Of a stretch of DNA of 64,000 nt, positions 17,701-63,121 are shown one piece after another (position 1 is the stretch's first letter; the number at the start of each line of letters is the position of its first letter). Where the stretch lies: assembly GCA_013298595.1 (NCBI GenBank), contig JAAFIG010000012.1:50297-114296 (forward strand), in the 5' to 3' direction. This DNA is from Deinococcales bacterium. Lineage in GTDB: Bacteria; Deinococcota; Deinococci; Deinococcales; JAAFIG01. Made by a program: the position numbers and the translations under genes. The notes under the pieces were generated by a model. That model saw nothing but the letters and a program-made list of their open reading frames with translations, made no database searches and was not told where the DNA came from.

Positions 17701-20700
17701 CTCCAGTTTGCACCATTAGCGCCGTTTGGTACGAATGTACCATCGGCTCGAGTTAAGCCGACTGGCAAGGTGTCTGTGAAGGTAATAGCTCCTGCGGTGG
17801 TTGGTGTTGTGGTGCTACCACCTTGGTTAGTGATCACAAATTGGAATGTACCTGTTTGTCCAACCACAAAGTTCGTAGCGGCTGGCAAAGTGGATTTCGC
17901 AATAATCAAATCAGGCACAGTTGGTGTGGTGACTGTGTTGGTTGGATTGCCATTGACTGTTGCTTGGTTAGCAATGTTAACAACATTGGCTGGTAATGGC
18001 GTGTTAACTGTGACTTGGAAATCTACGTTAATGCTGCCGCCTGCTGGTACAGTTAAACCAGAGCCTGTAACTGGGCTGGCAGTAGAAATAATGCTGCCTG
18101 TCGTTGAAGTGGTGGTTCCTGAATTTGGAACCAATGTGGTGTTAGCTGGCACAATATCGCTGAAAGTGACACCTGAAGCGACTGTACCACCTGCGTTATT
18201 AATAACAACTCGGTACGTAATGGTTTCGCCAGCTTGGGCAAGACCATCGGCGTTACCAATAATGGATTTGACTTGGGTCAGGCTCGAGGGTGTGTTTATT
18301 GCCACTGTGGCTGTGCTGGTGTTTGGACTTGTGCCTGCACCTGTTGCCTCGAGTACACCTGTTGGCGCAGTGACATTTGCGGTGTTCGCAACGCTTGCAC
18401 CTGCTGCATTGGCTGTGCCTGTGATGGTGATAGTAACAAAGTTACCTGTTGTTGGGGCAACAGTGGTTGCATTCGTGATTAAGTTACCGAATGTCACAGC
18501 ATTCAAAGTAGCTTGGGTTGTACCACTTGCTGCACTACAGGTTGCACCTGTGCTACCAGCACAAGCCCAGTTGGTCAGGGTGATGTTGCTTGGAATGGTA
18601 TCGGAGAATGTCACACCACTGAGTGGGCTGGCAGGTCCACGGTTCCAGACTTTAATGGTGTAAGTAACAGTATCGCCAACTACGTACACAGACGTGTTAG
18701 CAACTTTATCCACTGCTAAGTCAGCTACGCGTCCGTAACCATCATTAGTGGTGGTGCGTGGTGTACCAACTGCGGTTGGGGCAGCCACTGTGTTTTCTGG
18801 GTCTGAACCAGCGGTGGTCAAACGACCCGTTGTGGCGTTGGTTCGCACCCCTGCTGGCAGGGTAGCATCATCTACATTCACTGTGTAGGTTGCGGTACTC
18901 GAGACTGGAACAATGGCTGACCAGTCACCTGTTGCATTAGTTGGCACTGCCAGAGTTGGCGAACCTGCAGTGTTATTGGTGACATTGACGGTCACACCCG
19001 AAAGCGGAGCATCGCCCGCGTTATTGGTGCCGCTGGCATCGTTATCTTGGAAGACATTACCTGTGATGGTGCTGAAACCCAATGGTGTTGGATCGTTGGT
19101 TGTTCCAGCGCCGTTGTTATTGGTTGGGTCTGGATTTGTACCATTGTCCGAGACATCAGAGACAAGTGCGGTACCACCTGGTGTAGCTGCACTGGTCATT
19201 GTGGCGCTGTTGTTCTTGACTGTGCCTGCTGCGAATGTAGCTGCGTCTGGGTACACAACAGTCACAACAAATGCCACTGAACAGCCTTGTCCTGCCGCGA
19301 GGCTGAGGGTGCTGTTATCTGCCAACACATTGGTTTCGGTGGTTTGACCTGTGTAAGCAGTATTTAAAGCACCTGCAACACAGACTGCGTTTGAACCTGC
19401 ATTTAAGCCTGTAATTGTTCGTGTACCAACAGTGATGGTTGTTGCACCTGGGAAAGTGGTGCTGAGGTTATCCACCACTTGCACATTAGTAGCAGCCGTT
19501 GTACTCGAGGCTGGAACTGCGAAACGCAAGGTGTAAGGAACGGTGAACGAAAGCGGTGTGAGCATAGCCGCCGCACCTGGTTCGATGGCTTTTGCAATAC
19601 CCAAGGTTGGCAGTTGTGGCAACAAAATTGGGGTTGGGGTTGGTGTATCTGTATTAGGTGTATTTGGTAAAGCTGTGCCGTTAGTACTTAAATCGGCGGC
19701 TAACAGATTACCTGGAGGGGTTGGCGTACCCGACGCGTCTGGCGTGAAGGTATAACCAGGATTGCCCGCTAATGAACTCGAGGAAGCAAATACAGTGTTG
19801 TTTTGGGCTGTGGTTGGGGCTGCGGCTGCGTATGCAACTCGAGCTGTGAAAGTGATTGTACAAGTTGCACCAACAGCCAATGAGCCGTTACCGTTTAACA
19901 AACGGGTATCCGCAACACCATTAAAGGCGCTATTGACAGTAGAGACAGCACATGTTGCTGGTGTAGTAGAAGTGATTGCTGGTGTACTAAGAACTGTAAT
20001 GGTTGGTGTACCTGTGACAAAGGTACGTGCCAGATTTTCTGTTAACTGTACATTTGGCGCAAGTTGCGGACCTGTGTTTTTGACACTGACCGTAAACGGA
20101 ATATCGAAGGTATTGGCAGACACCTGAACTGGTGTGCCTGCGGATTTAACAACGTCGAGGCGTTGCGCTGGGAAAGCACAGGCTGCACCATCTGAACGGG
20201 TGGCTGTTTGTAAACCACTTTGGATTCTGGTGGCTGCACCTGTTTGTGTATCAATTTGGTACAAGAAACCATTGTTCGCGTAAGCAAACCAGTTACCTAC
20301 TGTATCCATGTAGGTGGTGCCCCAATTACCTTCGCCAGCAGGCACACCAGTAATGGTGATTGGCGTTACAGCCCCTGAAGCTTTATCAATTTTGACACCA
20401 GAGGTTTCGTTGATTGCACCATATAAGAAACCATCCACTGGGTTTAAGCTCATATCACCAATATTGGCTGTGGCTGGAGTCAGAGTAATCAATGTGGCAG
20501 ATGGCGGAGTACTGCTTACATTGATACGGTACATCCTGTTGCTGCCACCTGCTTCAGTGACGTAGTAATCACCATTTGAATCAAAATCAGCGGCAGTGGG
20601 TTGGAAACCATTTGGTAAACCACTGATTGGTCCGACTGAATCAAAACCAGTTGTACCAATTCTGTACAGACCTTGGGTAGCACTTGTACCACTGGGGGTA

Positions 20701-21611
20701 TCTGCATCTACACCAAGATAAATAGCGTACAAGAAATTATCAACTGGGTTGTAGCCTAAGCCGTTTAACACAGCACTTAAACTATTTAGTGGGGTTAGTG
20801 GTGTTTGTGAAAATGCAGGTCGGTTAATTTGGAATAAACGGCTTAAACCGGGTGTTCCCGTTGCCCGAATTTGATAGAAAGCGCCATCACAAGCATAAGC
20901 TGGACCCGTGTTATTGGTCACAGTTAACGAAGCTGGGGTTGGGGTTGGAGAAGCCACAGCCACAGGGTTTGCACCTGAAAATGGTGTTGCAGAACCAGTT
21001 GTTGCAAATGTTGTGTTGTTGTAAACACCAGCGCCAGGGGCTGTGACATTGACCGCGAATGTACAACTGCCACTGGCTGGAATTGTGCCACCTGTCAAAC
21101 TCAGGCTGGTGGCATTGGCTACTGGCAAACCACCCGTAAAATTACAGGTGGTATTGACAACAGCTGGCGGGTTTGCCACAACCACTGTTGAAGGTAACGA
21201 ATCTGTCAGGGTAGCAGCAGTAATAGGCACGGCATTGGGGTTGGTAATCGTGAAGGTTAAGGTACTGATACCACCTAAGGCAATGCTTGTTGGGTTAAAA
21301 GCTTTAGCAATTCTTGGGTTAATTAAAGTTGCTGTGCGGTTATTTTCGGCAACACCCCCAGCCACACCAGAATCTACGGGTGGCAAGGTTGGCGCTCCAA
21401 CTCCACCGTTGTTAGCAGGTGTTGGATCAGGTGTGCTCGAGGTTGCCGATACAACATTGATTAACTGTGCATTTGCGTTGGTAGCCACTACCAAACCCAT
21501 AAACACTGAAGCCAATAACATACCGCGCAAGAAACGCCCTGCGATGCTGTTAGGTGGTCTGGAATTCAGACCTGTTGTTTTCCGATTGAGTATCATATTT
21601 TCTGTACTCAT
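2706..21611 (-). CDS. Giant secreted surface protein, about 6300 aa, DUF11/SdrD-B/CshA-type repeats
   Basis: A single uninterrupted frame of about 19 kb. I place the start at ATG 21611, which has AAGGGGGAG before it and puts the signal peptide (core GMLLASVFMGLVVA, cleavage near NANA) within 50 residues. An in-frame ATG at 21719, 10 bases after the previous stop and also with GAGGG, would add 36 residues. Order of parts: a first DUF11-like repeat; a DUF6923-like segment (about 20880-20200) with readings on position-like values; about 20 DUF11-like repeats (about 20150-9500), interrupted by SdrD-B-like domains; then alternating SdrD-B-like (12 in all, each with a D-x-(D/N)-x-N-G calcium-site-like motif) and CshA/cadherin-like repeats (8, starting PPVAVND or similar and ending IPVLTND or similar) down to about 4300; and a last SdrD-B and two DUF11-like segments. 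The protein is rich in Thr, Asn, Val and Pro and nearly lacks Lys. No LPXTG or transmembrane anchor is seen at its C-terminus (ends GDEVIQ). Likely an extracellular fibre or adhesin; function inferred. Confidence 0.9.
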   Translation of the reverse strand: MSTENMILNRKTTGLNSRPPNSIAGRFLRGMLLASVFMGLVVATNANAQLINVVSATSSTPDPTPANNGGVGAPTLPPVDSGVAGGVAENNRTATLINPRIAKAFNPTSIALGGISTLTFTITNPNAVPITAATLTDSLPSTVVVANPPAVVNTTCNFTGGLPVANATSLSLTGGTIPASGSCTFAVNVTAPGAGVYNNTTFATTGSATPFSGANPVAVASPTPTPASLTVTNNTGPAYACDGAFYQIRATGTPGLSRLFQINRPAFSQTPLTPLNSLSAVLNGLGYNPVDNFLYAIYLGVDADTPSGTSATQGLYRIGTTGFDSVGPISGLPNGFQPTAADFDSNGDYYVTEAGGSNRMYRINVSSTPPSATLITLTPATANIGDMSLNPVDGFLYGAINETSGVKIDKASGAVTPITITGVPAGEGNWGTTYMDTVGNWFAYANNGFLYQIDTQTGAATRIQSGLQTATRSDGAACAFPAQRLDVVKSAGTPVQVSANTFDIPFTVSVKNTGPQLAPNVQLTENLARTFVTGTPTITVLSTPAITSTTPATCAVSTVNSAFNGVADTRLLNGNGSLAVGATCTITFTARVAYAAAAPTTAQNNTVFASSSSLAGNPGYTFTPDASGTPTPPGNLLAADLSTNGTALPNTPNTDTPTPTPILLPQLPTLGIAKAIEPGAAAMLTPLSFTVPYTLRFAVPASSTTAATNVQVVDNLSTTFPGATTITVGTRTITGLNAGSNAVCVAGALNTAYTGQTTETNVLADNSTLSLAAGQGCSVAFVVTVVYPDAATFAAGTVKNNSATMTSAATPGGTALVSDVSDNGTNPDPTNNNGAGTTNDPTPLGFSTITGNVFQDNDASGTNNAGDAPLSGVTVNVTNNTAGSPTLAVPTNATGDWSAIVPVSSTATYTVNVDDATLPAGVRTNATTGRLTTAGSDPENTVAAPTAVGTPRTTTNDGYGRVADLAVDKVANTSVYVVGDTVTYTIKVWNRGPASPLSGVTFSDTIPSNITLTNWACAGSTGATCSAASGTTQATLNAVTFGNLITNATTVAPTTGNFVTITITGTANAAGASVANTANVTAPTGVLEATGAGTSPNTSTATVAINTPSSLTQVKSIIGNADGLAQAGETITYRVVINNAGGTVASGVTFSDIVPANTTLVPNSGTTTSTTGSIISTASPVTGSGLTVPAGGSINVDFQVTVNTPLPANVVNIANQATVNGNPTNTVTTPTVPDLIIAKSTLPAATNFVVGQTGTFQFVITNQGGSTTTPTTAGAITFTDTLPVGLTRADGTFVPNGANGANWSCNAVANVVTCSSVAGVSLAAGASNTVTFQVNVGATADTGATPDSTNTATVQGGGEPSLNYNNNNSGSTPVNADPRADVTTTVNVTTTPRIPGDTISGTVDFRNAGPSPAAGVTSSITFPTGLTGGSVPTVTCTPNTVTAGAYNAATGVVTLSGIPNPLPSSATPNYTCNISYVVPANATADQVISSNIGTTTNQGANTLPDTSSVIVPLNSTDLQVAKTDTPASPTYTPGQNITYTVTVTNAGPDAVTGARVFDTVPANLTVSSVTCVGTACPPAPISVAAFTNSTTAPLGVALGNLTVAPAAGSTATFTVNATVSNGATGNLVNSATVNVPAGFGDPTPGNNTATDTNTSSGTPVDLTIAKTDIAPAFVVGQTGNYRLTVSNAAGSVGTSGTITVSDTLPAGITVPNSPPNLTLSGTNAANWTCTAASNVITCTSSTSIAGGGSSVFEFPVSIGAAAAPSVTNTATVSGGGEPPANNGNNTGTDITPVTPVADLSVVKTDGVGVTTAPAGGQVTYTVTVSNAGPNSVTGAIVSDPTVANLNVTSVTCAETAGGTIVGCPTGTITPAAFATGVTLGQLTASGADSSVVFTVIGTVTANSGSIVNTARVLAPAPGAGVPVDPTDPTRIGAGNNSSTDTDTITPQAIGVAKTANIITSGAGLPTPPTYRVRYSVLLENTGTINATNVQISENLERTYTGVTPANINVVGGSISATRSGSGTASGTECVANTSFTGKDAAGTTFNSTNMTLLDGSGTLEPGERCTVQFDVDVLFPASNTAFDNTAYGSTSLNPNNPGVTVPDTGATSNPTGTLTTDLSDNGTSPTTNNGAGGTDDPTPIRLVRVTGKVFQDDDANGTNAADPADAGINNVSVVLTSGGATPISTTVTTNATGDWQAFVPAGTYNVNVDDSTLPNTVRTNATTGNRTTGTSDGTGAAGAGETVVVAVPSNGTDPVTTTDDGYARVADVLISKTALPTTVTQGGSIAYTIKVWNNGPAVANGVAFTDVLPTGITLTNWTCAGSGGATCSAASGTTLATLNAVTLNMPARGTPSATEPTTGEFVTITVNAATSNTTPTGASNNLARATVPGVGNVNAFTDPTTNGTGPNPTRENEDSATVTVNTPSNLTLGKSVVDSADADTLAQAGETLTYTISVQNTGGTATNVTITDAIPANTTYVAGSASNGGTFATPTVTWTSVPVAAGTTVTRTFQVTVNTPLPANVTQISNTAVVDDLNDPAPGNSTPPADINTVPDLILAKSTLPAATNFVVGQTGTFQFVITNQGGSTTTPTTAGAITFTDTLPVGLTRADGTFVPNGANGANWSCNAVANVVTCSSVAGVSLAAGASNTVTFQVNVGATADTGATPDSTNTATVQGGGEPSLNYNNNNSGSTPVNADPRADLQIVKDNGATSVAAGGTTSYTVRVTNNGPSPVPAGAVVNDPLVAGLTKTSVTCVGAACPTAPISISSFESVGGGVTLGALANGATAVFTVVADVTATTGDVNNIANIVSSPVTDPTPGNNIDNDQDPVTGQQIGVAKAITSTTQVNANTVDIAYSIVLENTGTTNATNVQVVENFLRTFSPLGTADIALQGAPVITPSGGAVATDCAPATTAFDGEGNNALLSGSSTLAPNERCTIALTVRVSNIAATTYNNTAYGSTSLNPNNPGLTVPNDPAQAPTAPAGTIAQDLSDSGTSPTGNNGAGGNNDPTPLVFGSITGVVFQDTDGNGSQNGTEAGVGAPVDVTLTPSAGAPLTVQTNPTTGAWTAIVPLNSGLTYNVNVVDSTLPATLRTSPTAGNLTTTGSDPEATVAAPTTATPTRATTNDGYARVADVRIQKTAASATVTVGGAVTYTITVWNGGPAVANSIAISDVLPAGVTLNTWSCAATGTATCSAASGSAIGTLNALTVNLPVNASVPAPTTGSFVTITVNGTAATPGSTNNIARATTPAAGSPDFVSDPSTNGTGPNPTRENEDGAPVTINTPSSLVLNKVVNDGGDGKAQAGETLTYTISVQNTGGTATNVTITDAIPANTTYVAGSASNSGTEAGGTVTWTSVPVAAGATVTRTFQVTVNTPLPANVTDVTNVALVDDLSNPDPANSTPTVVTPTVPDLIIVKSDTGATFTVGLPGTYNFTVTNQGGSPTTGTITVADTLPTGLTVADGVVASGNAAWTCNAATNVITCTSTTAIAIGGSSNFSVAVIPTAAAVPSVSNTASVQGGGEPSTNYNNNNTGSDTTPVAAQQINVVKAAPARVTPVVGTPFAYDIPYAVQVSNTGTVPATNVQVVDNLVATYPSPAVISIQSAATVSSGTCTLNPTAFNGVSQTALLSGSNTLAPGASCIIKFTVRVTYPNAAVIPTSNRENTAVASTDDVPNPTGTNPSPLSSDNSTTTLPNGAGDPTNPPVAGDVPSPTPTQLNQPPVTQDRTNDPLALNAAATVLNPNLLGTDPDGTVVSYKITSLPTNGTLALGGVPITPAQVAAGFTVPATQLGTLTFDPDGTAPAGGSTSFTYAAIDNTGLEDSTPNTYSIPLGNEPPTTVDRTNVPVNAGDAAAPLALSPVAPVLSGNDPDGTVDNFVVTSLPTAGTLLYNGVPVVANTTLIPNTPADLALVTYLPSTTQPTAPVTFQYAARDNNGLQDGTPATYTIPYNVQQIDAVKTAGAATVISATSYSVPITVKVGNTGTIPATKVQVVENLARTFQGATSITISSYAVAPSAGATCTAATPSINGAVTGSVALLAGSDTLQPGQNCTITFTATVVFPDVATATTVRNNQVFASTSAQPGNNPGHTVPNDPATPPTPPTGALATDNSTNSPNLPATPNSDTPSPTPISPVTNGTLNGLVFEDKNSNGVQDPGELGIGNVPVTVTPAGGGAPIVVNTNPDGTYSVPNLPLGSTRVEVVTDPTNSVLTTPATDPQNVNIVPGTNPAADIGFVFVGNIKGNVFIDANGNGSQAGTNETGFAAQVKITNGAFTITVPADPVTGAYTADNVPVGTVTVEVLNSSIPATLKNSSGVPNQTAGVNPSVVTVTTANTTANRADAGADGFQPNPPVAVNDSAITASDTNVDIPVLTNDSSTTPNTKDPTSVKFTPTGQPAGSTVSPDGKTLTVPGEGTYTINPTTGVVTFDPEPTFTGTTTSVQYTFKDNAGLPSNPALITVNVGTPTKGTVTGLVFRDDNGNGTKDPTEPGIGNVDVIVTPAGGGAPITVSTNPDGTWSAPGVPAGNATVKVQTTDPDFLTGATLTTAGSDPSNVTVVAGGTVADARDGFRFPAPATAPDTANTPNNTPVNNIPVLGNDTASSPLTLVPSSVVFPTAGQPAGSSVSPDGKTLTNPSGTYTINPDGTVNFVPTSPAITGVQPPVKYTVTDSSGNVSAPTDITITVGTIGAGTLQGIVFFDDNGSGAQDGSEKGIPNVQVTLTPVGGGAAIPVTTDANGKYSANVPAGNYVVQIVDSSLPVTVKTGTTPNQTAGNNSPTNPVNTTTVVAGAVANADPDGYRLNPPVAVNDANTTPVNTPITFTLTGNDDATIPANIVPSTVDLDPSTPAQDTTRTVPEGQFVVNGIGEVTFTPNPNFSGNVTPITYTVLDSTTQKSNPATVNVVVTPTAANDTATTPVNTPVQIPVLGNDVGSKDPTKVFFPTTGQPVGAFVSDGGRTLTIPEGEFKSNPTTGVVTFTPVNGFIGAVPTVKYTMTDNVTTRTANIDVTVAAEVGSLRGVVFRDLDGNGSQGAGEQGIPNIDVVLTNGSFTRTVTTDANGVYTADNVPTGTVTVDVNTNDTDFPAALKTAGVPNQTAGVDPSVVTVAVTNTPASPANAGADGYRPAAPKAVNDTATTPADTNVDIPVLTNDTSDNGKDPTSVIFTPTGQPVGSTVSPDGKTLTVPGEGTYTINPTTGVVTFDPEPTFSGSATPVQYTYKDTNGQPSNPAQIAVTVGTPNKGNITGKVFEDTNGNGTQQAGEPNLENVQVTITPASGAPITVLTDANGVYTALNLPVGNAVVDIVDSSLPAKYKNPTTGVPNQTAGNDPTNASNVAAGSSVTIAAGTTVNQGIDGYRPNPPVAINDARVAPNTTTPVNNIPVLGNDTSSNPLVPSSVVFPTTGQPTGSTVSPNGKQITVPGNGTYTINPDGTVNFVPDPAFNGTPVPVKYTVQDNTGQTSNPATLTISAPGNPALATVVGKVYRDDNGNSTQNGSEPGLENISVTVSNGTFTATVQTAPDGTYSVPNVPLGSPVTVTVVSSSIPTTLKNPTTGTPNQTEGTNPTVITTPVAGINNAGNDGFRLNPPVANPDKAVTPLNTPITFSLTGNDKATNPANIAPDTIDLDPITAGVQTTRDVPEGRFAVNGVGEVTFTPKTDFSGNVTQITYTVLDSTGQRSNVTTVDVTVLPISSDDTAQTPQDTPVTIPVLTNDKGNLVPSTVVVVKNPTNGTTTVNPDGTIKYTPNLGFFGTDTFDYKVCDTAGSCTVSKVTVTVNKTTTARLEVPVFNDDNGNGVRDPGETAIPNATVTLYEVDPTTNKVRVDTSGNPVRLKDAAGNPIPPVQTDANGVAVFPAVPVGKVGVVVTDPAGKVLTTNNNIQIVDIKPNTVNKAPAVGYVPPKINLTITPDRQVVTPGDNLPYTSVITNNTPGTITPLKNPVYTVTLPKGVTYDPSKPITVQVPGGKPIVVDKSQISTTTNAQGEQVLTIKMPNDLKNGEPVTVKFDTIVGANINTKEPLIAKGTVTGTAQNPSLNGVPVSVNASSGSIAAAAVKVTLGVFDNSSVIVGRVYFDNNNNNNFDAGDRPLPGARVYMSDGRSAVTDSNGRYSVPNVAPGTYVVRLDPVTAPYAVKRVPEDLGSPGSRHVRASEIGGVVNADFLLSPPQGAAVKARSTTVQRGPVTIIKSMVQGGAGYAVTIRITLEKAVSNLSITDPLPANSSRGPVTVNGTTTTPNTNGNVISIPGTLPAGSYTMIYPLFSALPPDLALTDPDIDYEELLILIHLEPQTTETSSPSTPFSTATAVEEGLEISRKFGDEVIQ
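11602..11720. repeat. 119-bp direct repeat inside giant gene, copy 1
   Basis: Appears identical by eye to 14167-14285. It encodes part of a DUF11 unit (TYTISVQNTGGTATNV region). Confidence 0.85.
13516..13964. repeat. 449-bp direct repeat inside giant gene, copy 1
   Basis: Matches 17470-17918 with about a dozen mismatches in 449 bp. It encodes one complete DUF11 unit (starting ILAKSTLPAATNF). The two protein copies differ at hardly any residue, so nearly all DNA differences are synonymous. Confidence 0.9.
14167..14285. repeat. 119-bp direct repeat inside giant gene, copy 2
   Basis: Partner of 11602-11720, same orientation. Confidence 0.85.
17470..17918. repeat. 449-bp direct repeat inside giant gene, copy 2
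   Basis: Partner of 13516-13964, same orientation and phase. The spacing between copies is about 3.95 kb; recombination between them would delete or duplicate a whole number of domains in frame. Confidence 0.9.
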
Positions 21612-27929: not shown

Positions 27930-30900
27930 CTATGGTGCTGTTATTGTTACTGTAAAAGTTTGCGATGCCGTATTTGCTAAGCTCGAGAGAGCAGGTGTTG
28001 TTGTGCTATTCCAAGTCACCACTCCAGCTGCTTGAGTACCGCCGTTACTCGCACCCACAAATGTACTCCCCGCTGGTAACGTATCCGTTATCACCACATT
28101 CTGAGCAGCATTTGGTCCGTTATTAGTCACAGTCACAGTATACGTAACATTCCCACCCGAATTCACGACAGCAGGTGATGGTTGCGATTTTGTAATAACC
28201 AAATCCGCACTCGGCGCAACAGGTGTCACTCGAGTTGCATCTGTACGCGCAGGTGAATCCTGATCTTGTGGTTGAGCAATAGGATTTGTGAAAGTACCAG
28301 TAGCCGTTGTATCAGCATCACTCAGTAAACCACTCGCAGGGAATCCAGCAGTTGTACTACTCACCACAGCAGTATTATCAATGTTCACTCCAGCAGCCCC
28401 TGTGATTGAAGCACGGAAAGTCAGTACAATCGTACCAGCAGGTGCAAGGGTACCAGTTGTACTTAATAATGTTGTATTTGGGGCTTTACCAGTGAAACTT
28501 GTATTAGCAATAGCGCCTGTACCAGCTGTTTGTGATTCAATAGCTAGGTTTGTCGCATTACCTAATTGTGCTGGTGTGGCATCAGTTAATTGCAAACCAG
28601 TTAAAGCAAGTCCAGCATCAGGTGTGTTTGGATTTGTGAAAGCAATTCGGTACTCGAGGATATCTCCTGGGCTGACACTATTAGAATTATCAACATCGCT
28701 AAATAAACGCACACTCTTTAATGGTTGAGTCACAGCTAAAGTAGCCGCAGCGATCACGTTATTACCAGCATCTGTGGTTAAAGCACCAGCAGGGATAACA
28801 TTGTTAAAAGAACCAGCTGAATTCGAGATTACATCCACGCTTACTGTGCACCCACCCACTGGTACTCGAGCAGCATTTAGTAAGCCAATGCTGGTAGTTG
28901 TGGTAACAGGTGTGGCAGTGGTAGTGCCAGTTCCAGATGCAAGACAGGTGGTACTTGCATTTGCTGGGGTTGCTAGGATGACTGTTCCAGGCATTGTATC
29001 TGTGAAAGCACTAGTTAATGTGCTTTGAGTAGCATTACTATTTCCAATCGTAATCGTTAATCTCGAGGTTTGACCAGGTGCAACGAATCTAGGATTGAAT
29101 ACTTTAACAAGTGATGGCGCAGCTAAAATCACGATATCTTCGTTGGTACTTGAACCGCTGGCATAATTACTGCCACCTGCATTGCCACCACCTGTTTGAT
29201 AGGCTCCGCTTGGTTGAATGGTCGTACCAGCAACATTTCGGGTAGGGTCTAAATAATTTGCATTGGCAGGGTTTTGATAAGTGCCTGGCGCAGCGCCATT
29301 CAAACCGACAGTCAAGGTTAATGACACTTGTCCGCCTGCTGGAATAGTGAAGGAATTTGTAGCTGTTCCACCTGCTGTGCCCACAGTAATTGTAGTGACA
29401 CCACCTGCAACTGCTGTAGTGGGTGTGACACTGGCAGGTCCACTAGCACCTCCAGAATACACTGGTGTAACAGCAACTGGTGTGTAATTAAAAGGTGCAG
29501 GCAAAACATCAACCACATTGACACCTGTGGCTGTACCAAGACTTGCTGCATTAGAAACGGTAATGGTGTACGTTCCTGTGGTTTGAGAGGTTCGTACTGG
29601 TGTTGAAGTTGATTTGGTCACAGTCAAGGCAGGAAGACAAACGGCACCTCCGCTTATACCAGTTGCAGCCGTTGTGGTTGTGGTTGTACCACTACCGTCT
29701 ATACCTGGGGTAGAACCATACGCATTGGCAGGAGGAGTTGGGTCTGGACCTTTGATCCCTTCTAAACCATTAACACCACCTGTGACGGTAGCAGCAAGAC
29801 CTGTTAAATTTGTGCTCCTCAAGACAAATCCACCACCACCACCACCACCAGGACCATGATCGTAGAAATCTGGGTCGCCACCGTTACCACCACGAGCATT
29901 GATGGTTAAATTTGCCCCTGTTCCGCTGGTACTCGTAATAAAAACGCTACCACCGGCACCACCAGCGCCAGCACCTTCGCTTGATGTGGTAGTGGCTGTA
30001 CTTGCAGCATTTGCAGCATTACCATTTGTATTATATGCACGGTAACCATCTGCGTTAATTTGCGCTCCAGCAACAGCATTAATTGTGCCAGTTCTTACTA
30101 AAACAATTCCACCACCAGCAGCACCAGATAACGTAATAGCCCCTTGTGCACCATTAGCTACTGGGTTAGTAGTGTTGCCACGTGGCGTTGGAGAAATAGG
30201 GGTAGGTGGATAAATTGAGACAACATTTGCAGTAGTGTTGTTATTAGAACTACCCGCACCACCACCACCACCCAAAACTAAGCGGGTTGCAGAATTGGTA
30301 GCAGCTTTGCCACCAGCACCACCAGCGGCATTATTGTTTGACCACGAATTACCACCACCGCCACCAGCGCCAGCGTTTCCACCACCGCCGCCGCCAGAAT
30401 TGAATTGGTTTGTTCCGGTTGGAGGCGTACCGTCATTACCACCACCACCAGCATTACCTGGGCTACCTTGTCCGTAGCTACCGTTGGTGTAGCCGTCCAC
30501 GCCGTAATCTAATGGAGTTGCTGTACCATTAAAAACAAAACGTGGTGTACCAGCAGTTCCTTCACCTTTTGATGCTCCGTTAGCATTGGTTGCATCAGCA
30601 GGGTATCTTAAATCGGAGAACAAACCACCAGTTCGGTTACCCGTTCCATTACGCCCAGCGCCCCCACGAAACCCTTGTCCTGACACATCAATATTTGCAC
30701 CAGCATTCATTGTTAAACTGCCAGAAACATCAATGGCTACCACACCGCCACTAGCAGCACCTGTAGTTGTATCAACATCCCAAGGAGCAGCCGAAACGAC
30801 CCCACTGATAATTGCACTCGAGTATTGTGGTACCCGAATGACTTGGTATGTCTGGCGATTAGCATAATCTTGTACATATGTATTAACCAACGAGTTTGCC

Positions 30901-57847: not shown

Positions 57848-58183
57848 ATGAAATTCTTTAACCCATTTGCACACTCAACCAAAGCCATTCAATACCGTCA
57901 CGGCGATGTCATGCTGCAACAAGTGAACGCCTTGCCCAGCAACGCCACACCACAACAAGGTGTGATACTGGCTCGAGGTGAATTAACAGGGCATAGTCAC
58001 CGTATTAAGGATTGGAATGCCGCACAATTATTTACCCATAACGGTCAAACTTTTGTGCAAATCAAAGAACCAACCGCTGTCATCCACGAAGAACACCGTG
58101 CGATTCCACTCGAGGTTGGCATTTACCGTTACTGGATGCAGCGTGAATATCATCCAAAAGCCATTGTGAATGTCAGAGATTAA
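57848..58183 (+). CDS. Small hypothetical protein, partner of the DUF6745 protein
   Basis: 111 aa from ATG 57848, with AAGGA about 9 bases before it. It is cytoplasmic and soluble, without a signal peptide. Its conserved-looking features are YRHGDVMLQQV, ILARGELTGHSHRI (His-rich), and EEHRAIPLEVGIYRYWMQREY. Proteins of this pattern are, from memory, found next to DUF6745 proteins in diverse bacteria, sometimes in large phages. The role is unknown. It is 43 bp upstream of the leucine-rich DUF6745 gene on the same strand. Confidence 0.75.
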   Translation: MKFFNPFAHSTKAIQYRHGDVMLQQVNALPSNATPQQGVILARGELTGHSHRIKDWNAAQLFTHNGQTFVQIKEPTAVIHEEHRAIPLEVGIYRYWMQREYHPKAIVNVRD

Positions 58184-58226
58184 ACCAAAACCTTAGCCGT
58201 AATCCCGCACTGTACTAGGATAAATC

Positions 58227-59228
58227 ATGAAAATTACAACGATACCAGCACAAACCGCTAAGCAACTTATACTCGAGGGAAATGCACCAGAAGGCATGGT
58301 CGTTTCGGGCACATTAGACCTGAGTGGTGAAAAGAATCTGCATTCACTACCCAAGAATATGACTTGCGGCACTTTAAACATCAGCGAATCAAGTATTGGT
58401 CAACTACCATCAGGCTTAAAATGCAATCAAATAGATGCTGTTCGCAGTAAAATTCGTACCTTACCCGCCGATATTTCTGTACGATTTCGCTTAAATTTAA
58501 CTGAATCCGAGCAACTCGAGACACTACCCGAAAACCTGACTGTTGGTTCCTTGGTACTTCGTGAGTGTATTGGCTTAAAGACACTTCCAGAAGGTTTAAA
58601 CACCAGCTTTTTAGACTTAACAGGTTGTGTGCTGCTCGAGAAATTCCCCCTACATGGCAATATTGGTATTGGGCATTTAACTTTACGCGGTTGCACTCGA
58701 CTCGAGGCATTACCCAATTGGTTAGGGCAACTGGCTCAACTCGACATTGCAGGTTGTGAACGCATTACTGACATACCACAAGGTTTACAAATCAGCTCAT
58801 GGTTAGACTTAGCAGATACCCAAATTACGCAACTCGAGAACCCAAACACAAAACTACGCTGGCGAGGAGTTAGTATCGAACCACGTATTGCTTTCCAACC
58901 CGAAAGCATCACAGCCAGCGAAATTATAGACACCGAAAACCTCGAGTTACGCCGCGTTAAACTCGAGCGCATGGGGTACGAACGATTTGTTGAAACAGTC
59001 AATGCCCAAGTGCTTGACACCGACCGCGATGCAGGTGGTACACGGAAATTACTTCGCGTACCATTTTCTGGCGATGAAGATTTTGTCGCTGTCTGGGTGA
59101 TTTGCCCAAGCACCGAACGCAATTATGTGTTGCGTGTACCACCAACCACAAAAACCTGTCATCAAGCAGCCGCATGGTTAGCTGGCTTTGATAATCCAAA
59201 CGATTATGCGCCATTGATTGAAGCGTAA
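58227..59228 (+). CDS. Leucine-rich-repeat protein with C-terminal DUF6745
   Basis: 333 aa. AGGA stands 6 bases before the ATG. Residues about 20-205 form a series of short leucine-rich repeats (LDLSGEKNLHSLPKNM, LVLRECIGLKTLPEGL, LTLRGCTRLEALPNWL, LDIAGCERITDIPQGL) that alternate with tryptophan-poor linkers. The last 110 residues (about 225-333) match DUF6745 (RRVKLERMGYERF, LLRVPFSGDEDFVAVWV, ERNYVLRVPPTTKTCHQAAAWLAGF). The LRR part of other cassette members (STM4015 family) is comparable. It is a predicted cytoplasmic recognition protein. Its 3' end overlaps that of the convergent radical SAM gene by 25 bp. Confidence 0.8.
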   Translation: MKITTIPAQTAKQLILEGNAPEGMVVSGTLDLSGEKNLHSLPKNMTCGTLNISESSIGQLPSGLKCNQIDAVRSKIRTLPADISVRFRLNLTESEQLETLPENLTVGSLVLRECIGLKTLPEGLNTSFLDLTGCVLLEKFPLHGNIGIGHLTLRGCTRLEALPNWLGQLAQLDIAGCERITDIPQGLQISSWLDLADTQITQLENPNTKLRWRGVSIEPRIAFQPESITASEIIDTENLELRRVKLERMGYERFVETVNAQVLDTDRDAGGTRKLLRVPFSGDEDFVAVWVICPSTERNYVLRVPPTTKTCHQAAAWLAGFDNPNDYAPLIEA

Positions 59229-60079
59229 TTGCTCGGAATTCGCTCGAGAATTCCACCTTGAAAGACATCGTACAGATTTAATTTCTCGAGGTGGACATAC
59301 CCAATGTGGCAGTCACAAATGGCTCGAGTGCAAAGTTTTGCCACTAACTTTTGCTCAAAATCGCTGTCAAAAATACGACCAATTGGTGTTTCGATAAAAT
59401 GGCAACGCCTTGCTATGCCTTGCCCATCTACGCTGATAACCGTATGACCTGCATGGCACGCTTGTCCTCGAGATTTGTATCGCTCGAGATTGAGTGGAAA
59501 ATGTGGGTCTATTTTTGTGAATTTCTCGAGAGTTTCAGGGTTGTAATAATCTTGTCCTCGGCGGTCAAAAGCGTTAATCCAAAGATAAATTTCGGGCGGA
59601 ATTGCTTGACGTAGTTTTTCGATTAGCTCGAGGTTTTCTCGGATACCAACAACGCCAACGCTGAACCGCACACCAAATTGAATCAGTTCTTTAACTCGAG
59701 TAGCAAATTTTTCGACACTGGTTTGGGATGGGTGAAACGTGATCCATAACGCTAATTTCTCGAGGTTAACGGCTTCTAGCCAGTGTAAACCCCATGAGCC
59801 ATTGGTTTGTACCACAACCTTCTCGAGGTGCGCCAAATGTGAAAGTTGTTGTACTACTTTTTGATACCGAGATCGAATTAATGCTTCGCCCCACGGTGTA
59901 AAAAAAATACTGGTTAGTTTACCTCGAGTTTCGACCCATTGCACAAATTGCTCGAGAGCCAGTGCATCGCGTTGATGCTCAGCTTTGGATTCTGTGTGCT
60001 TAGCAAATGGGCAGTAATTGCAAGCGTAATTACAACTTGATAAAAAACCTCGATACAAGATACTCAGTGTTTCAGACAT
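59204..60079 (-). CDS. Radical SAM protein, STM4011 family
   Basis: 291 aa. GAGGAAG stands 4 bases before the ATG, which overlaps the SMI1-like stop by 8 bp. The N-terminus ILYRGFLSSCNYACNYCPFAK carries the radical SAM cluster motif CxxxCxxC (Cys16, Cys20, Cys23), in the form characteristic of the STM4011 family (cysteine-rich PFAK start). The TIM-barrel core holds TPWGEAL (SAM region) and VVQTNGS. A further cysteine set (about 213, 229, 250, 252: QACHAG, RRCHF, AICDCHIG) probably binds an auxiliary iron-sulfur cluster. It is predicted to make carbon radicals on a small peptide or metabolite, and it is the last gene of the minus-strand cassette. The family name comes from Salmonella STM4011, whose substrate is, to my knowledge, unknown. 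Confidence 0.9.
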   Translation of the reverse strand: MSETLSILYRGFLSSCNYACNYCPFAKHTESKAEHQRDALALEQFVQWVETRGKLTSIFFTPWGEALIRSRYQKVVQQLSHLAHLEKVVVQTNGSWGLHWLEAVNLEKLALWITFHPSQTSVEKFATRVKELIQFGVRFSVGVVGIRENLELIEKLRQAIPPEIYLWINAFDRRGQDYYNPETLEKFTKIDPHFPLNLERYKSRGQACHAGHTVISVDGQGIARRCHFIETPIGRIFDSDFEQKLVAKLCTRAICDCHIGYVHLEKLNLYDVFQGGILERIPSNYASINGA

Positions 60080-60599
60080 GTGCTTCCTCGAGTGGAAAAA
60101 ACAAGTCTTCGCCTGCTAGCCAAGCTGCTAGCCAATCCTCAAGTGAATCTTTTTGCCAAAGTATATACTCTTCGTCGAAACCATCTTCAAAAACACCGAT
60201 ATCAACAATACCAACTCGTCCAGTCTTAGCATCGAGCAAAGAAAAAATTGTGCAGCCATGATAGCAAAAAGGTAAGTATTGATATTTCCATCCAGCTTTT
60301 CTCCAAGCTAGAAATGTAGGCACAACGCAACTTGCAGTAGCAGCAAATTTACCCTTGAGAAGCGGTAAAATCCCATAAGCAACCCCAAAGTTACCATTAC
60401 CAATTTCGAGATACATACACTTAAAAGCTTCAGGCAAAGCAAAACCAAGTTTAGCCTCAGCTTTTGCAATATCAGCCAGCTTCAAAGGCGAATTGGCAAT
60501 ATGTCGAAATGGGGGTTGAATATGAGTCGCGCTATTCATGTCAGTTGCTCGTTGAGGATCCAAAGCGCGTTCTTTGACTTGAAAAAAGATTTCTCTCAT
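60072..60599 (-). CDS. SMI1/KNR4-family protein
   Basis: 175 aa, ATG 60599 with GGAGG 6 bases before it; that site overlaps the stop of the upstream gene. It resembles the SMI1/KNR4 (SUKH) fold: EAKLGFALPEAFKCMYLEIGNG, GILPLLKG, FLAWRKAGWKYQYLPFCYHGC and a C-terminal FEDGFDEEYILWQKDSLEDWLAAWL. SUKH proteins are often immunity proteins against polymorphic toxins, but they also occur as accessory proteins. No toxin gene lies here; within this cassette a binding or regulatory role for the radical SAM partner is more likely. Confidence 0.75.
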   Translation of the reverse strand: MREIFFQVKERALDPQRATDMNSATHIQPPFRHIANSPLKLADIAKAEAKLGFALPEAFKCMYLEIGNGNFGVAYGILPLLKGKFAATASCVVPTFLAWRKAGWKYQYLPFCYHGCTIFSLLDAKTGRVGIVDIGVFEDGFDEEYILWQKDSLEDWLAAWLAGEDLFFPLEEAHV

Positions 60600-60602
60600 G
60601 TG

Positions 60603-61931
60603 TTACCTCCATTCATATGCTTGAGCCAATTCTTGCACATATGCCGAGTAAAACAAATGTCCAATAGCATCGCTGCGTTCCAAACCAAGCTCTGTCAGAC
60701 GGATTTTATCGGAGCTAACTACCACTAATCCAAGCTCGAGTAAATCTTGTAGCACAGCAAAATCCTCGAGTGCATTTGAAGCAAAGCGAGTCCAGTAAGT
60801 GCTACTCGAGAAACCTGCAACATTAAAAATATCTTGAAGAATAAATCTGCGCCGTTGCTCGAGTGCATCTAAGTAAAAACCGTGTGCGGCATACGCAAAA
60901 TCGGTTTCGGAACGCAGTGCGTAATCAGCAATAATTTCTTTGACACCAACTTGCCCAACAGCGTATTCGCTCGAGTAATGTAACTTTTGGGTGTATGAAC
61001 GCGCACCAACACCAAGACCGATTAAACCATCAGCTTGGGCATCAAAGGCAATACCACCATCCCTAGAAGGCACATCTGCACGGCGAAAAACCCGCATGGA
61101 ATGCTGTTCATAACCGTGCTCGAGTAAGAAATCTCGAGCCACTCGATATAAGGTAAGGCGAGTATCATCCCAATTCTTCTCGAGTTTACCTAAACCAGTT
61201 AGCGGACGAACATACAATGGGTATAAAAATAATTCTTGTGGCGCAAACTCAAGTGCTATTTTCAGCGACTCGAGCCATGTTTCACGGGTTTGCTCGGGTA
61301 AACCATAGATCAAATCAATGTTCAAAGTTGGAAAATCCAGTGCTTTAATACGCTGTAATGCCGCTAGAACCTCGCTCAAGTGCTGTGCCCGACCAACTGA
61401 CCGCGCCTCGGATTCAACAAAGCTTTGTACACCAATGCTGATTCGGTCTGCTTCAAAAGATTTAAGTAACTCGAGCCTATCTGTTGTTGCTGTTTGTGGT
61501 GAAGTTTCAACACTAAGCGGCGTAGCAGCATTGACAGAAAACAACTCGAGCACAGCTAAAACCCGTTGGAGTTCTCGTGGTTCGAGATAGGTTGGCGTAC
61601 CACCACCTAAAGCAGCCCGAACAATTTTTTGCTTTGGCAAAGCATCACGCACCACACGGGCTTGACGCTCGAGAGCAGACAAAAAGTTTGCCTCGAGACT
61701 TGCTTCTGGATTGACCGTTGTAAACAAATTACAAAAACCACAACGCATTTCACAAAACGGAATATGCAGATACAAAAACGCATCCGTAGGCTCGAGCGCC
61801 CAAATTTCATGTAGTGCAGCTTGAGGTAGAAGTTTTCGATATGCAGTTTTATGTGGATAAGCATAGGTATATGCCACATATGGCGAACCTGTTAATACAG
61901 ACTCAAGGGATTTATTCATACTCGAGACCAT
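60603..61931 (-). CDS. HemN-like radical SAM protein, STM4012 family
   Basis: 442 aa. The start at ATG 61931 (MVSSM) is taken as the first; ATG 61919 (MNKSL) is equally possible, and neither has a clear ribosome binding site. The N-terminal extension SPYVAYTYAYPHKTAYRKL is diagnostic for STM4012. The radical SAM motif CxxxCxxC is at Cys60, Cys64, Cys67 (IPFCEMRCGFCNLF), followed by HemN-like parts (RAALGGGTPTYLEP, SVETSPQTATTDRLELL, ISIGVQSFVESEA, NIDLIYGLPEQT). The C-terminal HemN-like domain follows. It belongs to the coproporphyrinogen-dehydrogenase superfamily, not true HemN: it has a different N-terminus and context. Confidence 0.93.
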   Translation of the reverse strand: MVSSMNKSLESVLTGSPYVAYTYAYPHKTAYRKLLPQAALHEIWALEPTDAFLYLHIPFCEMRCGFCNLFTTVNPEASLEANFLSALERQARVVRDALPKQKIVRAALGGGTPTYLEPRELQRVLAVLELFSVNAATPLSVETSPQTATTDRLELLKSFEADRISIGVQSFVESEARSVGRAQHLSEVLAALQRIKALDFPTLNIDLIYGLPEQTRETWLESLKIALEFAPQELFLYPLYVRPLTGLGKLEKNWDDTRLTLYRVARDFLLEHGYEQHSMRVFRRADVPSRDGGIAFDAQADGLIGLGVGARSYTQKLHYSSEYAVGQVGVKEIIADYALRSETDFAYAAHGFYLDALEQRRRFILQDIFNVAGFSSSTYWTRFASNALEDFAVLQDLLELGLVVVSSDKIRLTELGLERSDAIGHLFYSAYVQELAQAYEWR

Positions 61932-61983
61932 GCAATGATGTAAAGACTAATAAATACAAAGTTCGCTTCGATAGTCCAAAAAT

Positions 61984-62790
61984 TCATGGCTCTTCCTCGA
62001 GAAAAAATTCAGCATAAGGCACATTCCACACGGTTTCATGCGCTAAACGATGCCCATAAAAACCATCCTCGCCAAAGGCTTCGCCATGATCTGCACAAAT
62101 AATGCACAAAGCACCACCTCGAGCAGCAAATACTTCAAATAACTTGCCCAAATGCCTATCCACATGTTCAAGTGCTGCTGCCTGCGTCTCGAGAGAATCT
62201 TTGGTCGCTCCTTGCACAAAAATTCTGGTTGGGCTATGCGTTGCCGAAACATTGATAAACATACAGACTCGATCTGTATCTGTGAGTTCACGTAAATACC
62301 GTAAAGCTTGGGTCACTTGATTGAGCGTACTGCTCCGACTTTGCACACCTAAAGCAGTGGAATAAGCAACATGTTCAAAATAATTGGGCAACACCGAACC
62401 AAGCCCACCAGTATCTCTGAAAAAACCAACTCCACCAATACAAAAAGTAAAATACCCCAAATTCTCGAGAGCTTTAATCCAATTGCTTTCGGCATAGACA
62501 AACGATTTTTCCGAAGTGGTTTTAGAACCCTCGAATTTTGCTGCGAACAATCTCGAGTGTCGCCCAGGAAAAGCTGGTGTTGGTAAAAACCCAGCAAAAA
62601 ACGCTTGATGCGCCGCGAAAGTAAAAGTAGCAGGCGAATGCCGCAATTCCCAAGTACCATTTGGAATAACTCGAGCTAAATTTGGAGTGCGCCCAGCCTC
62701 GAGTGCCTGCATAGCAACATCGTAACGCAAACTATCCAGCGTAATGAACAGCACATCTTTATGGGGAATGTAATCGTTGGCGTTAAGCAT
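61984..62790 (-). CDS. Sulfatase-fold hydrolase, STM4013/SEN3800 family
   Basis: 268 aa. It has the alkaline-phosphatase-like fold: FITLDSLRYDV at residues 15-25 holds Asp19 (metal) and the nucleophile position Ser20. Family-specific parts follow (RHSPATFTFAAHQAFFAGFLPTP, GRHSRLFAAKFEGS, FCIGGVGFF), and a late metal site CADHGEAFGEDGFYGHRLAHE. The family nucleophile is not a formylglycine-forming Cys, so it may be a phosphodiesterase or phosphoesterase-like enzyme. Start ATG 62790, with a GAGAGG farther upstream inside the end of the Rieske gene. It is 10 bp after the Rieske gene and 52 bp before the STM4012-type gene. Confidence 0.9.
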   Translation of the reverse strand: MLNANDYIPHKDVLFITLDSLRYDVAMQALEAGRTPNLARVIPNGTWELRHSPATFTFAAHQAFFAGFLPTPAFPGRHSRLFAAKFEGSKTTSEKSFVYAESNWIKALENLGYFTFCIGGVGFFRDTGGLGSVLPNYFEHVAYSTALGVQSRSSTLNQVTQALRYLRELTDTDRVCMFINVSATHSPTRIFVQGATKDSLETQAAALEHVDRHLGKLFEVFAARGGALCIICADHGEAFGEDGFYGHRLAHETVWNVPYAEFFLEEEP

Positions 62791-62800
62791 CGTGAAGATT

Positions 62801-63121
62801 TTACCTCTCCTCTACCCAGACCAAATCATCCTCGAGCCAAGCCTTATAACTTTTTACAGCTTTAACAGCTGGCAAACACAATGCTTTACCCGTCTCGAGA
62901 TTGAATCTTGCCCCGTGTCGCACGCATTTGATACTTGGCGTAGTGCCTTCGTGCTCTGTAATTTCGCCACCCAAAAGTTCATTATCATCGTGCGAACAAC
63001 GGTCTTCAATAGCCCAGAAACCCGAGATTGACCGCAGCACCAGCACGTAATCAGAGCCAATCTCGAGACTTTTTTGCGTGCCGATTACAAATTCCTCGAG
63101 TGTACCAACTTGGGTTTTCAT
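62801..63121 (-). CDS. Rieske [2Fe-2S] ferredoxin-like protein
   Basis: 106 aa. Cluster ligands C-x-H at Cys42/His44 (DRCSHDDNEL) and C-x2-H at Cys66/His69 (IKCVRHGARF) of the small soluble Rieske ferredoxin type. It is the first gene of the minus-strand cassette and may supply electrons to the radical SAM enzymes, or to an oxygenase. It appears leaderless: TAGACT ends 6 bases before the ATG, without a ribosome binding site. Confidence 0.9.
   Translation of the reverse strand: MKTQVGTLEEFVIGTQKSLEIGSDYVLVLRSISGFWAIEDRCSHDDNELLGGEITEHEGTTPSIKCVRHGARFNLETGKALCLPAVKAVKSYKAWLEDDLVWVEER

Follow-up and report, generated by a model that had tools for sequence, protein, structure and literature searches.

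We analyzed a cassette of seven genes at positions 57848-63121 of a 64,000-nucleotide stretch of DNA from a Deinococcales bacterium (GenBank assembly GCA_013298595.1, contig JAAFIG010000012.1); the whole stretch is called the window below. Three of the genes encode members of the STM4011, STM4012, and STM4013 families, and the partner families STM4014 and STM4015 are encoded elsewhere in the same genome. Our main result concerns STM4015, a leucine-rich repeat (LRR) protein whose conserved C-terminal glutamate (Glu) is probably the spot that the enzymes of this system build on. All seven reading frames of the cassette were confirmed at the following coordinates, with lengths in amino acids (aa) and radical S-adenosylmethionine abbreviated as radical SAM:

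57848-58183, plus strand: small partner protein, 111 aa, a reading frame that pairs with DUF6745 at cassettes of many phyla
58227-59228, plus strand: LRR-DUF6745 protein, 333 aa (PF20530, 78.8 bits, above the Pfam gathering score)
59204-60079, minus strand: STM4011 radical SAM enzyme, 291 aa (NF038073, 370.6 bits, cut-off 200)
60072-60599, minus strand: SUKH (SMI1/KNR4) protein, 175 aa (PF09346, 43.6 bits, above the Pfam gathering score)
60603-61931, minus strand: STM4012 HemN-like radical SAM enzyme, 442 aa (NF006067, 543.9 bits, cut-off 380)
61984-62790, minus strand: STM4013 hydrolase of the alkaline phosphatase superfamily, 268 aa (NF038075, 358.2 bits, cut-off 250)
62801-63121, minus strand: Rieske-type [2Fe-2S] ferredoxin, 106 aa (PF00355, 42.7 bits, above the Pfam gathering score)

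Family membership was called with the NCBIfam curated cut-offs for STM4011, STM4012, and STM4013 and with the Pfam gathering scores for SUKH, Rieske, and DUF6745. An earlier annotation of this DNA, made from its letters and here called the sequence-only reading, had assigned the two radical SAM enzymes to STM4011 and STM4012 and the hydrolase to the STM4013/SEN3800 family, and the scores place all three there. The three genes are neighbors in the window, with the SUKH gene between STM4012 and STM4011, and the great majority of 39 related loci retain the order 4013-4012-4011. The two outcomes that would have refuted the sequence-only reading, radical SAM proteins outside these families or a third member missing in relatives, therefore did not occur. 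The minus-strand genes are operon-like, with gaps of 10, 52, and 3 bp and one 8-bp overlap. The DUF6745 gene converges on STM4011 with an overlap of 25 bp (59204-59228), an arrangement also found in Deinococcus psychrotolerans.

The five STM genes are not contiguous in this genome: 4013-4012-4011 lie on contig C4, and STM4014 and STM4015 lie together on a separate contig (C43:13429-15440) with unrelated genes on both sides. STM4014 and STM4015 both score above their cut-offs (C43:14358-15440, 376 bits, and C43:13429-14244, 337 bits). The genome therefore resembles the Salmonella STM4011-STM4015 cassette in having all five families above cut-off (NF038073, NF006067, NF038075, NF038074, and NF038076), in the order 4013-4012-4011, and in the C-terminal Glu of STM4015, but it differs in being split and in having added Rieske and SUKH genes; the Salmonella plasmid locus, in turn, lacks the DUF6745 protein and small partner that the window has. 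Because the cassette is also split in Thiomargarita (locus L087) and Planktothricoides (locus L093), contiguity is common rather than obligatory. The 4015-4014 pair stays together in split or rearranged cassettes, both on contig C43 and at loci L007, L012, L023, L041, L087, and L093, with locus L038 as an exception to this joint movement. Deinococcus taeanensis and D. psychrotolerans have a contiguous 4015-4014-4013-4012-4011 cassette, and in both the DUF6745 and small genes on the opposite strand overlap the 3' end of STM4011. The window retains the convergent overlap of DUF6745 and STM4011, and the most economical explanation of the split is that 4015-4014 was relocated in the window species. 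Among named relatives, a Deinococcales metagenome-assembled genome (MAG) is nearest, with 79% identity in STM4011. In a sister genome of the same genus (G005), the place of STM4015 (L067 5232-6089) is occupied by a strongly diverged LRR protein with the C-terminus YDYE, and two DUF6745 pairs lie near STM4011, making substrate replacement possible in that genome.

Cassettes were found in Deinococcota, Chloroflexota, Planctomycetota, Actinomycetota, Cyanobacteria, Pseudomonadota, Bacillota, Bacteroidota, and further MAGs, so the scattered bacterial distribution proposed in the sequence-only reading extends over eight named phyla. That reading had also called the function undescribed, and the open-access papers to which our search was confined, subscription journals not being covered, contain no functional description of STM4011-STM4015. 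The five families themselves are already known in NCBIfam, where their only names are Salmonella locus tags; what is apparently new, as far as we checked, is the STM4015 tail described below, the argument from the pairing of 4014 with 4015, and the evidence that DUF6745 and its partner are members. STM4015 was present in 11 of 12 genomes picked for having STM4011. Conversely, each of the 58 STM4015-positive genomes tested had exactly one copy of STM4011, and none of the 22 genomes that lack a true STM4015 had any. Many genomes carry several copies of STM4015, up to five or more. A maturase and its substrates would be expected to show this pattern, a single enzyme set alongside many tail proteins, and so would enzymes for which STM4015 is an adaptor.

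The profile used to search for STM4015 left out the last 28 residues of the seed proteins. Among unique proteins matching over the full LRR, 166 of 172 end in Glu, as do 37 of the 38 representatives that share <50% LRR identity. The tails of 31 of these 38 divergent proteins match [YF]xx[VAI][SAGT]E at the stop, with RYVAVSE as a typical heptapeptide, and 35 have Tyr or Phe at position -6. Across the same 38 representatives, the last seven positions hold 2.0 to 4.2 bits each compared to approximately 1 bit in the linker that precedes them. The linker is acidic (combined Asp and Glu fraction 0.34 vs 0.15 in the LRR), and the distance from the LRR to the stop varies from 19 to 37 residues. C-termini include YMNAMYTE in Salmonella, RYPSLTE in Paenibacillus, YYPMITE in Bacteroides, RSIAVSE in Methylobacterium, and RFVALGE or RYVALGE in Deinococcus. 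STM4015 of the window genome ends in WRSPQIGE. Given that the Tyr is missing in the window genome and that the Arg-Tyr pattern is absent in Salmonella, the general part of the tail is the final Glu only, usually with a small residue before it. The C-termini of STM4011, STM4013, and STM4014 are ragged, unlike that of STM4015.

A terminal Glu could arise as a by-product of translational coupling through ATGA or GTGA start-stop overlaps. We rejected this explanation on stop-codon usage: 63 of the 166 Glu-ending genes have a TAA or TAG stop, and the Glu itself is encoded by GAA as well as by GAG, which rules out start-stop overlap as the cause.

Paralogues of STM4015 that lie far from the cassette retain the tail, and within one genome the LRRs of paralogues diverge to approximately 45% identity while the tail is retained. 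Seven tandem STM4015 genes occur in Actinomadura craniellae (L021 1-6758), and nine STM4015-like matches are spread over many contigs of a Kofleriaceae MAG (G122; loci L095, L097, L100, L103, L105, and L107); nearly all the copies that were read in these two genomes have the terminal Glu. A constant tail on diverging LRRs, in proteins that are multi-copy in many genomes, is also what one would see if the LRR of STM4015 bound targets and the tail were a docking peptide that delivers them to the radical SAM and ATP-grasp enzymes or to another machine. This adaptor explanation does not say why ligases of a carboxylate-modifying family should be linked to a terminal Glu instead of to just any peptide, and no target gene is conserved nearby; we consider it improbable and place it third among the explanations of the tail.

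The enzymes encoded with STM4015 belong to families with suggestive chemistry. STM4011 has a CxxxCxxC motif (C16, C20, and C23) followed by C208, C226, C250, C255, and C257, all invariant in 15 aligned sequences; this pattern agrees with that of auxiliary-cluster cysteines, and the C-terminus is predicted to be SPASM-like. For STM4012, the next-best families were HemW (141 bits) and ChuW/HutW (133 bits). STM4014 is an ATP-grasp protein with RimK, MptN, CofF, LysX, and cyanophycin synthase as distant relatives, all of them ligases that join amino acids to carboxylates. Among them, LysX is the ATP-grasp ligase that attaches cargo to the carrier protein LysW.

In alignments of STM4013 with sulfatases and nucleotide pyrophosphatases, its Thr57, a residue that does not vary across 13 sequences, falls at the Cys/formylglycine position of the sulfatases and matches the Thr that serves nucleotide pyrophosphatases as their nucleophile; D234-H235, H247, and H251 are also invariant. 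Because of this match, STM4013 most likely acts on phosphate esters or phosphodiesters. The sulfatase-fold hydrolase of the sequence-only reading thus stands as a member of the STM4013 family but is not a formylglycine sulfatase, since Thr57 replaces the Cys or Ser of the CxPxR motif. A radical SAM enzyme that adjoins a sulfatase-fold hydrolase recalls an anaerobic sulfatase maturase with its sulfatase, but the Thr of STM4013 stands where sulfatases carry the formylglycine Cys and needs no formylglycine maturation, and we rejected the idea that STM4011 matures STM4013 in this way. HAD hydrolase genes at the cassettes also point to phosphate chemistry: one comes after STM4011 in Salmonella and in two Actinomycetes, and one lies nearby in D. 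taeanensis. On a Bacteroides finegoldii plasmid (L260 10112-11677), STM4011 is apparently fused to a C-terminal HAD-like domain, which we recognized by eye, and STM4013 is a remnant. The Bacteroides locus without STM4012 had the look of a minimal system but was not used as one, because STM4013 there is a short remnant.

A Glu-ended peptide on a folded protein, encoded beside an ATP-grasp ligase, has a precedent in the amino-group carrier proteins. Carriers such as LysW hold cargo on the gamma-carboxylate of their C-terminal Glu during later enzyme steps (PMC9303977), and the terminal Glu and ATP-grasp partner that STM4015 shares with LysW/LysX favor a model in which STM4015 is a carrier or its tail is extended. 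STM4015 would be a scaffold, with the acidic linker joining its folded LRR domain to a C-terminal peptide whose Glu is near-invariant. STM4014, as a RimK/LysX-type ATP-grasp, would probably join an amine or amino acid to the terminal Glu, as LysX does on LysW. STM4011 and STM4012, SPASM-like and HemN-like, respectively, would afterwards act on the tail or on the group tethered to it, and STM4013, joined in some species by a HAD phosphatase, would remove a phosphate-type group. A single enzyme set would serve from one to many copies of STM4015. The sequence data show the families, the linkage of the seven genes, the co-occurrence, the tail, and the Thr at the nucleophile position; that STM4015 is a substrate, what STM4014 ligates, how the steps follow one another, and what they produce are inferred. 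We rank this model first among the explanations considered while giving it somewhat less than an even chance.

The likeness to the amino-group carrier pathways (LysW/LysX and Vzb22; PMC9303977) consists of the conserved C-terminal Glu peptide on a folded carrier and of the RimK/LysX-type ATP-grasp encoded beside it, given that STM4014 adjoins STM4015 and is weakly similar to these ligases. The differences are that STM4015 is an LRR protein with no homology to a LysW-type domain and that the STM system has radical SAM and phosphatase-superfamily partners, with no LysZ/LysY/LysJ/LysK set seen.

Several results weigh against the carrier model. STM4014 resembles LysX and cyanophycin synthase only weakly (E 0.002 to 0.005), and neither a release peptidase nor a second carrier-pathway enzyme is conserved beside the cassette genes in related neighborhoods. 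In Herpetosiphon genomes (L008-L011), the first of four tandem STM4015 copies lacks the Glu tail and ends in YLA or similar; this copy is a natural tail-less paralogue. In the sister genome G005, the sole STM4015 is very diverged (34 bits). A conserved C-terminus can alternatively be a docking or localization signal. In addition, when tails were compared by genome with LRR relatedness accounted for, 43 were closer to a paralogue and 113 to a foreign protein, with 67 ties. Coevolution of the tail subtype with the genome or its cognate enzymes is therefore unsupported, and this failed test carries modest weight against a tightly coadapted substrate.

The same genes could also make a ribosomally synthesized and post-translationally modified peptide (RiPP). 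The STM4015 tail would then be a core peptide and the LRR a large leader; STM4011 and STM4012 would alter residues of the heptapeptide (Tyr, Val, and Ser/Ala), STM4014 would make an amide cross-link or add a residue, and the modified peptide or cofactor would be cut off, compare pyrroloquinoline quinone (PQQ) from PqqA. A SPASM radical SAM enzyme with an ATP-grasp is a known RiPP combination, found in graspetides (PMC8939145), and the aromatic residue at -6 of most divergent tails and the many paralogous precursors per maturase set also fit. However, the Tyr is missing in the window genome (RSPQIGE), Salmonella (YMNAMYTE) lacks the Arg-Tyr, the genes have no conserved peptidase or exporter next to them, and a leader of approximately 280 residues of LRR would be unusual. 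A PQQ-like Glu-Tyr cross-link is unlikely as the general chemistry, the Tyr being absent in both the window genome and genome G003. The STM system also differs from graspetide and SPASM-maturase clusters in lacking a short precursor gene, its candidate precursor being an LRR protein of approximately 300 residues with a tail. On balance, we consider a RiPP-like pathway unlikely, ranking it below the carrier model and above the adaptor.

The sequence-only reading had reported no precursor peptide. This holds for a small precursor gene: none is present in the window cassette, where gaps of 3 to 52 bp leave almost no intergenic room, and no further conserved family of open reading frames (ORFs) of ≥50 aa was found in the cassette neighborhoods, ORFs of <50 aa at other loci not having been searched systematically. 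A substrate candidate that this reading missed is the conserved C-terminal tail of STM4015.

The DUF6745 and small genes on the opposite strand, which the sequence-only reading had noted without recognizing their status, are true conserved members of the STM4011-4015 system. They adjoin the cassette in 11 of 39 related loci and also on Deinococcus and Methylobacterium plasmids. A strong DUF6745 match (>310 bits) was present in 31 of 395 Actinomycete genomes; all 31 were also STM4015-positive (56 of 395 overall), with the match on the same contig as STM4015 and 1.0 to 7.8 kb from it (hypergeometric 5e-31, ignoring shared ancestry). Weaker DUF6745 matches elsewhere do not adjoin STM4015. The seven-gene loci of D. 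taeanensis, D. psychrotolerans, and Methylobacterium currus resemble the window in that the pair adjoins the cassette, and in Deinococcus it likewise converges on STM4011; they differ in having five contiguous STM genes and neither Rieske nor SUKH. The pair is a conserved accessory component, possibly a second substrate or a sensor.

In alignments, the N-terminal half of the DUF6745 protein is a bacterial LRR in most of the non-Actinomycetes examined, including the window. AlphaFold2 modeled the LRR-DUF6745 protein with a predicted local distance difference test (pLDDT) score of 93 and the small protein, which is mostly beta, with a pLDDT of 87. Neither model supported a known fold: the whole LRR-DUF6745 model had no confident PDB match (Foldseek, E ≤ 0.001), and the small protein had no Foldseek match at the same threshold and a best VIA-align Z of 4.0, with one cupin among the low-Z rows (Z 2.1). 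The small protein has the invariant motifs G-E-x-T-G-H-x-H, H-x-E-H, and Q-R-E-Y-x-P and a conserved C-terminal V-x-D; its invariant residues form a putative metal or ligand site. A second LRR-DUF6745 and small pair occurs in the window genome (L070 7638-8694, contig C52), and the sister genome G005 has two pairs (including L080 7188-8248). The extra pairs in these genomes lie near a VWA-domain-like protein, and an annotated VWA protein is also found near the D. taeanensis cassette.

The Rieske and SUKH genes, which the sequence-only reading had taken as partners in the cassette, are real genes and not conserved partners. At the other cassette loci examined, neither had a homologue, and in G005 STM4012 and STM4011 are separated by 45 bp with no SUKH gene between them; we therefore rejected both as integral members. 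The SUKH insertion was found only in the window species, and the Rieske gene occupies the place held by STM4014 in other cassettes. The palindrome CTCGAG occurs once in the SUKH gene (528 bp) and 34 times in STM4011, STM4012, and STM4013 combined, a modest sign that the SUKH gene arrived recently.

SUKH proteins are typical immunity proteins, and the small protein has weak or distant phage relatives. The locus could accordingly be pictured as a system of inter-strain competition or defense, in which SUKH would confer immunity, LRR-DUF6745 and the small protein would act as an effector with its partner, and the radical SAM enzymes would be maturases. The absence of SUKH from every other cassette examined counts against this picture, as does the lack of a conserved secretion or toxin gene nearby; in the cassette itself, which was searched without its wider neighborhood, no toxin gene was identified beside SUKH. 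PADLOC gave only weak, partial matches, and on these we rejected anti-phage defense. We regard the competition or defense explanation as very improbable.

CTCGAG is itself abundant in this lineage. The window contains 309 copies compared to 14.2 expected (approximately 20-fold over expectation), and the density is 4.8 to 9.2 per kb in four genomes of the Deinococcales lineage (including loci L067-L070 and L079-L081) vs 0 to 0.3 per kb in two Deinococcus plasmids. A comparison of four orthologous genes with G005 found 29 of 41 sites shared, whereas approximately 6.7 would be expected by drift. CTCGAG resembles HIP1, the iterated palindrome of cyanobacteria (PMC4390886), in being a highly iterated palindrome, and it differs in occurring outside cyanobacteria. 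The longest stretches of the window free of CTCGAG (29062-30817, 19838-21436, and 5859-7378; 1.5 to 1.8 kb) may be recent acquisitions or may hold constrained genes.

Taken at its widest, the carrier model describes a new scaffolded biosynthesis, in which the Glu of an LRR carrier is the site where an ATP-grasp ligase, together with two radical SAM enzymes, assembles a group, with multiple paralogous carriers per genome and the DUF6745/small accessory pair, in at least eight phyla; we put this forward tentatively and with less confidence than the carrier model itself. The STM4015 tail reduces "function unknown" to one experimental question, whether its last eight residues change in mass. Two proteins of unknown function, DUF6745 and its small partner, gain a genetic system. 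If the carrier model is true, carrier-protein biosynthesis would extend to LRR scaffolds and radical SAM chemistry.

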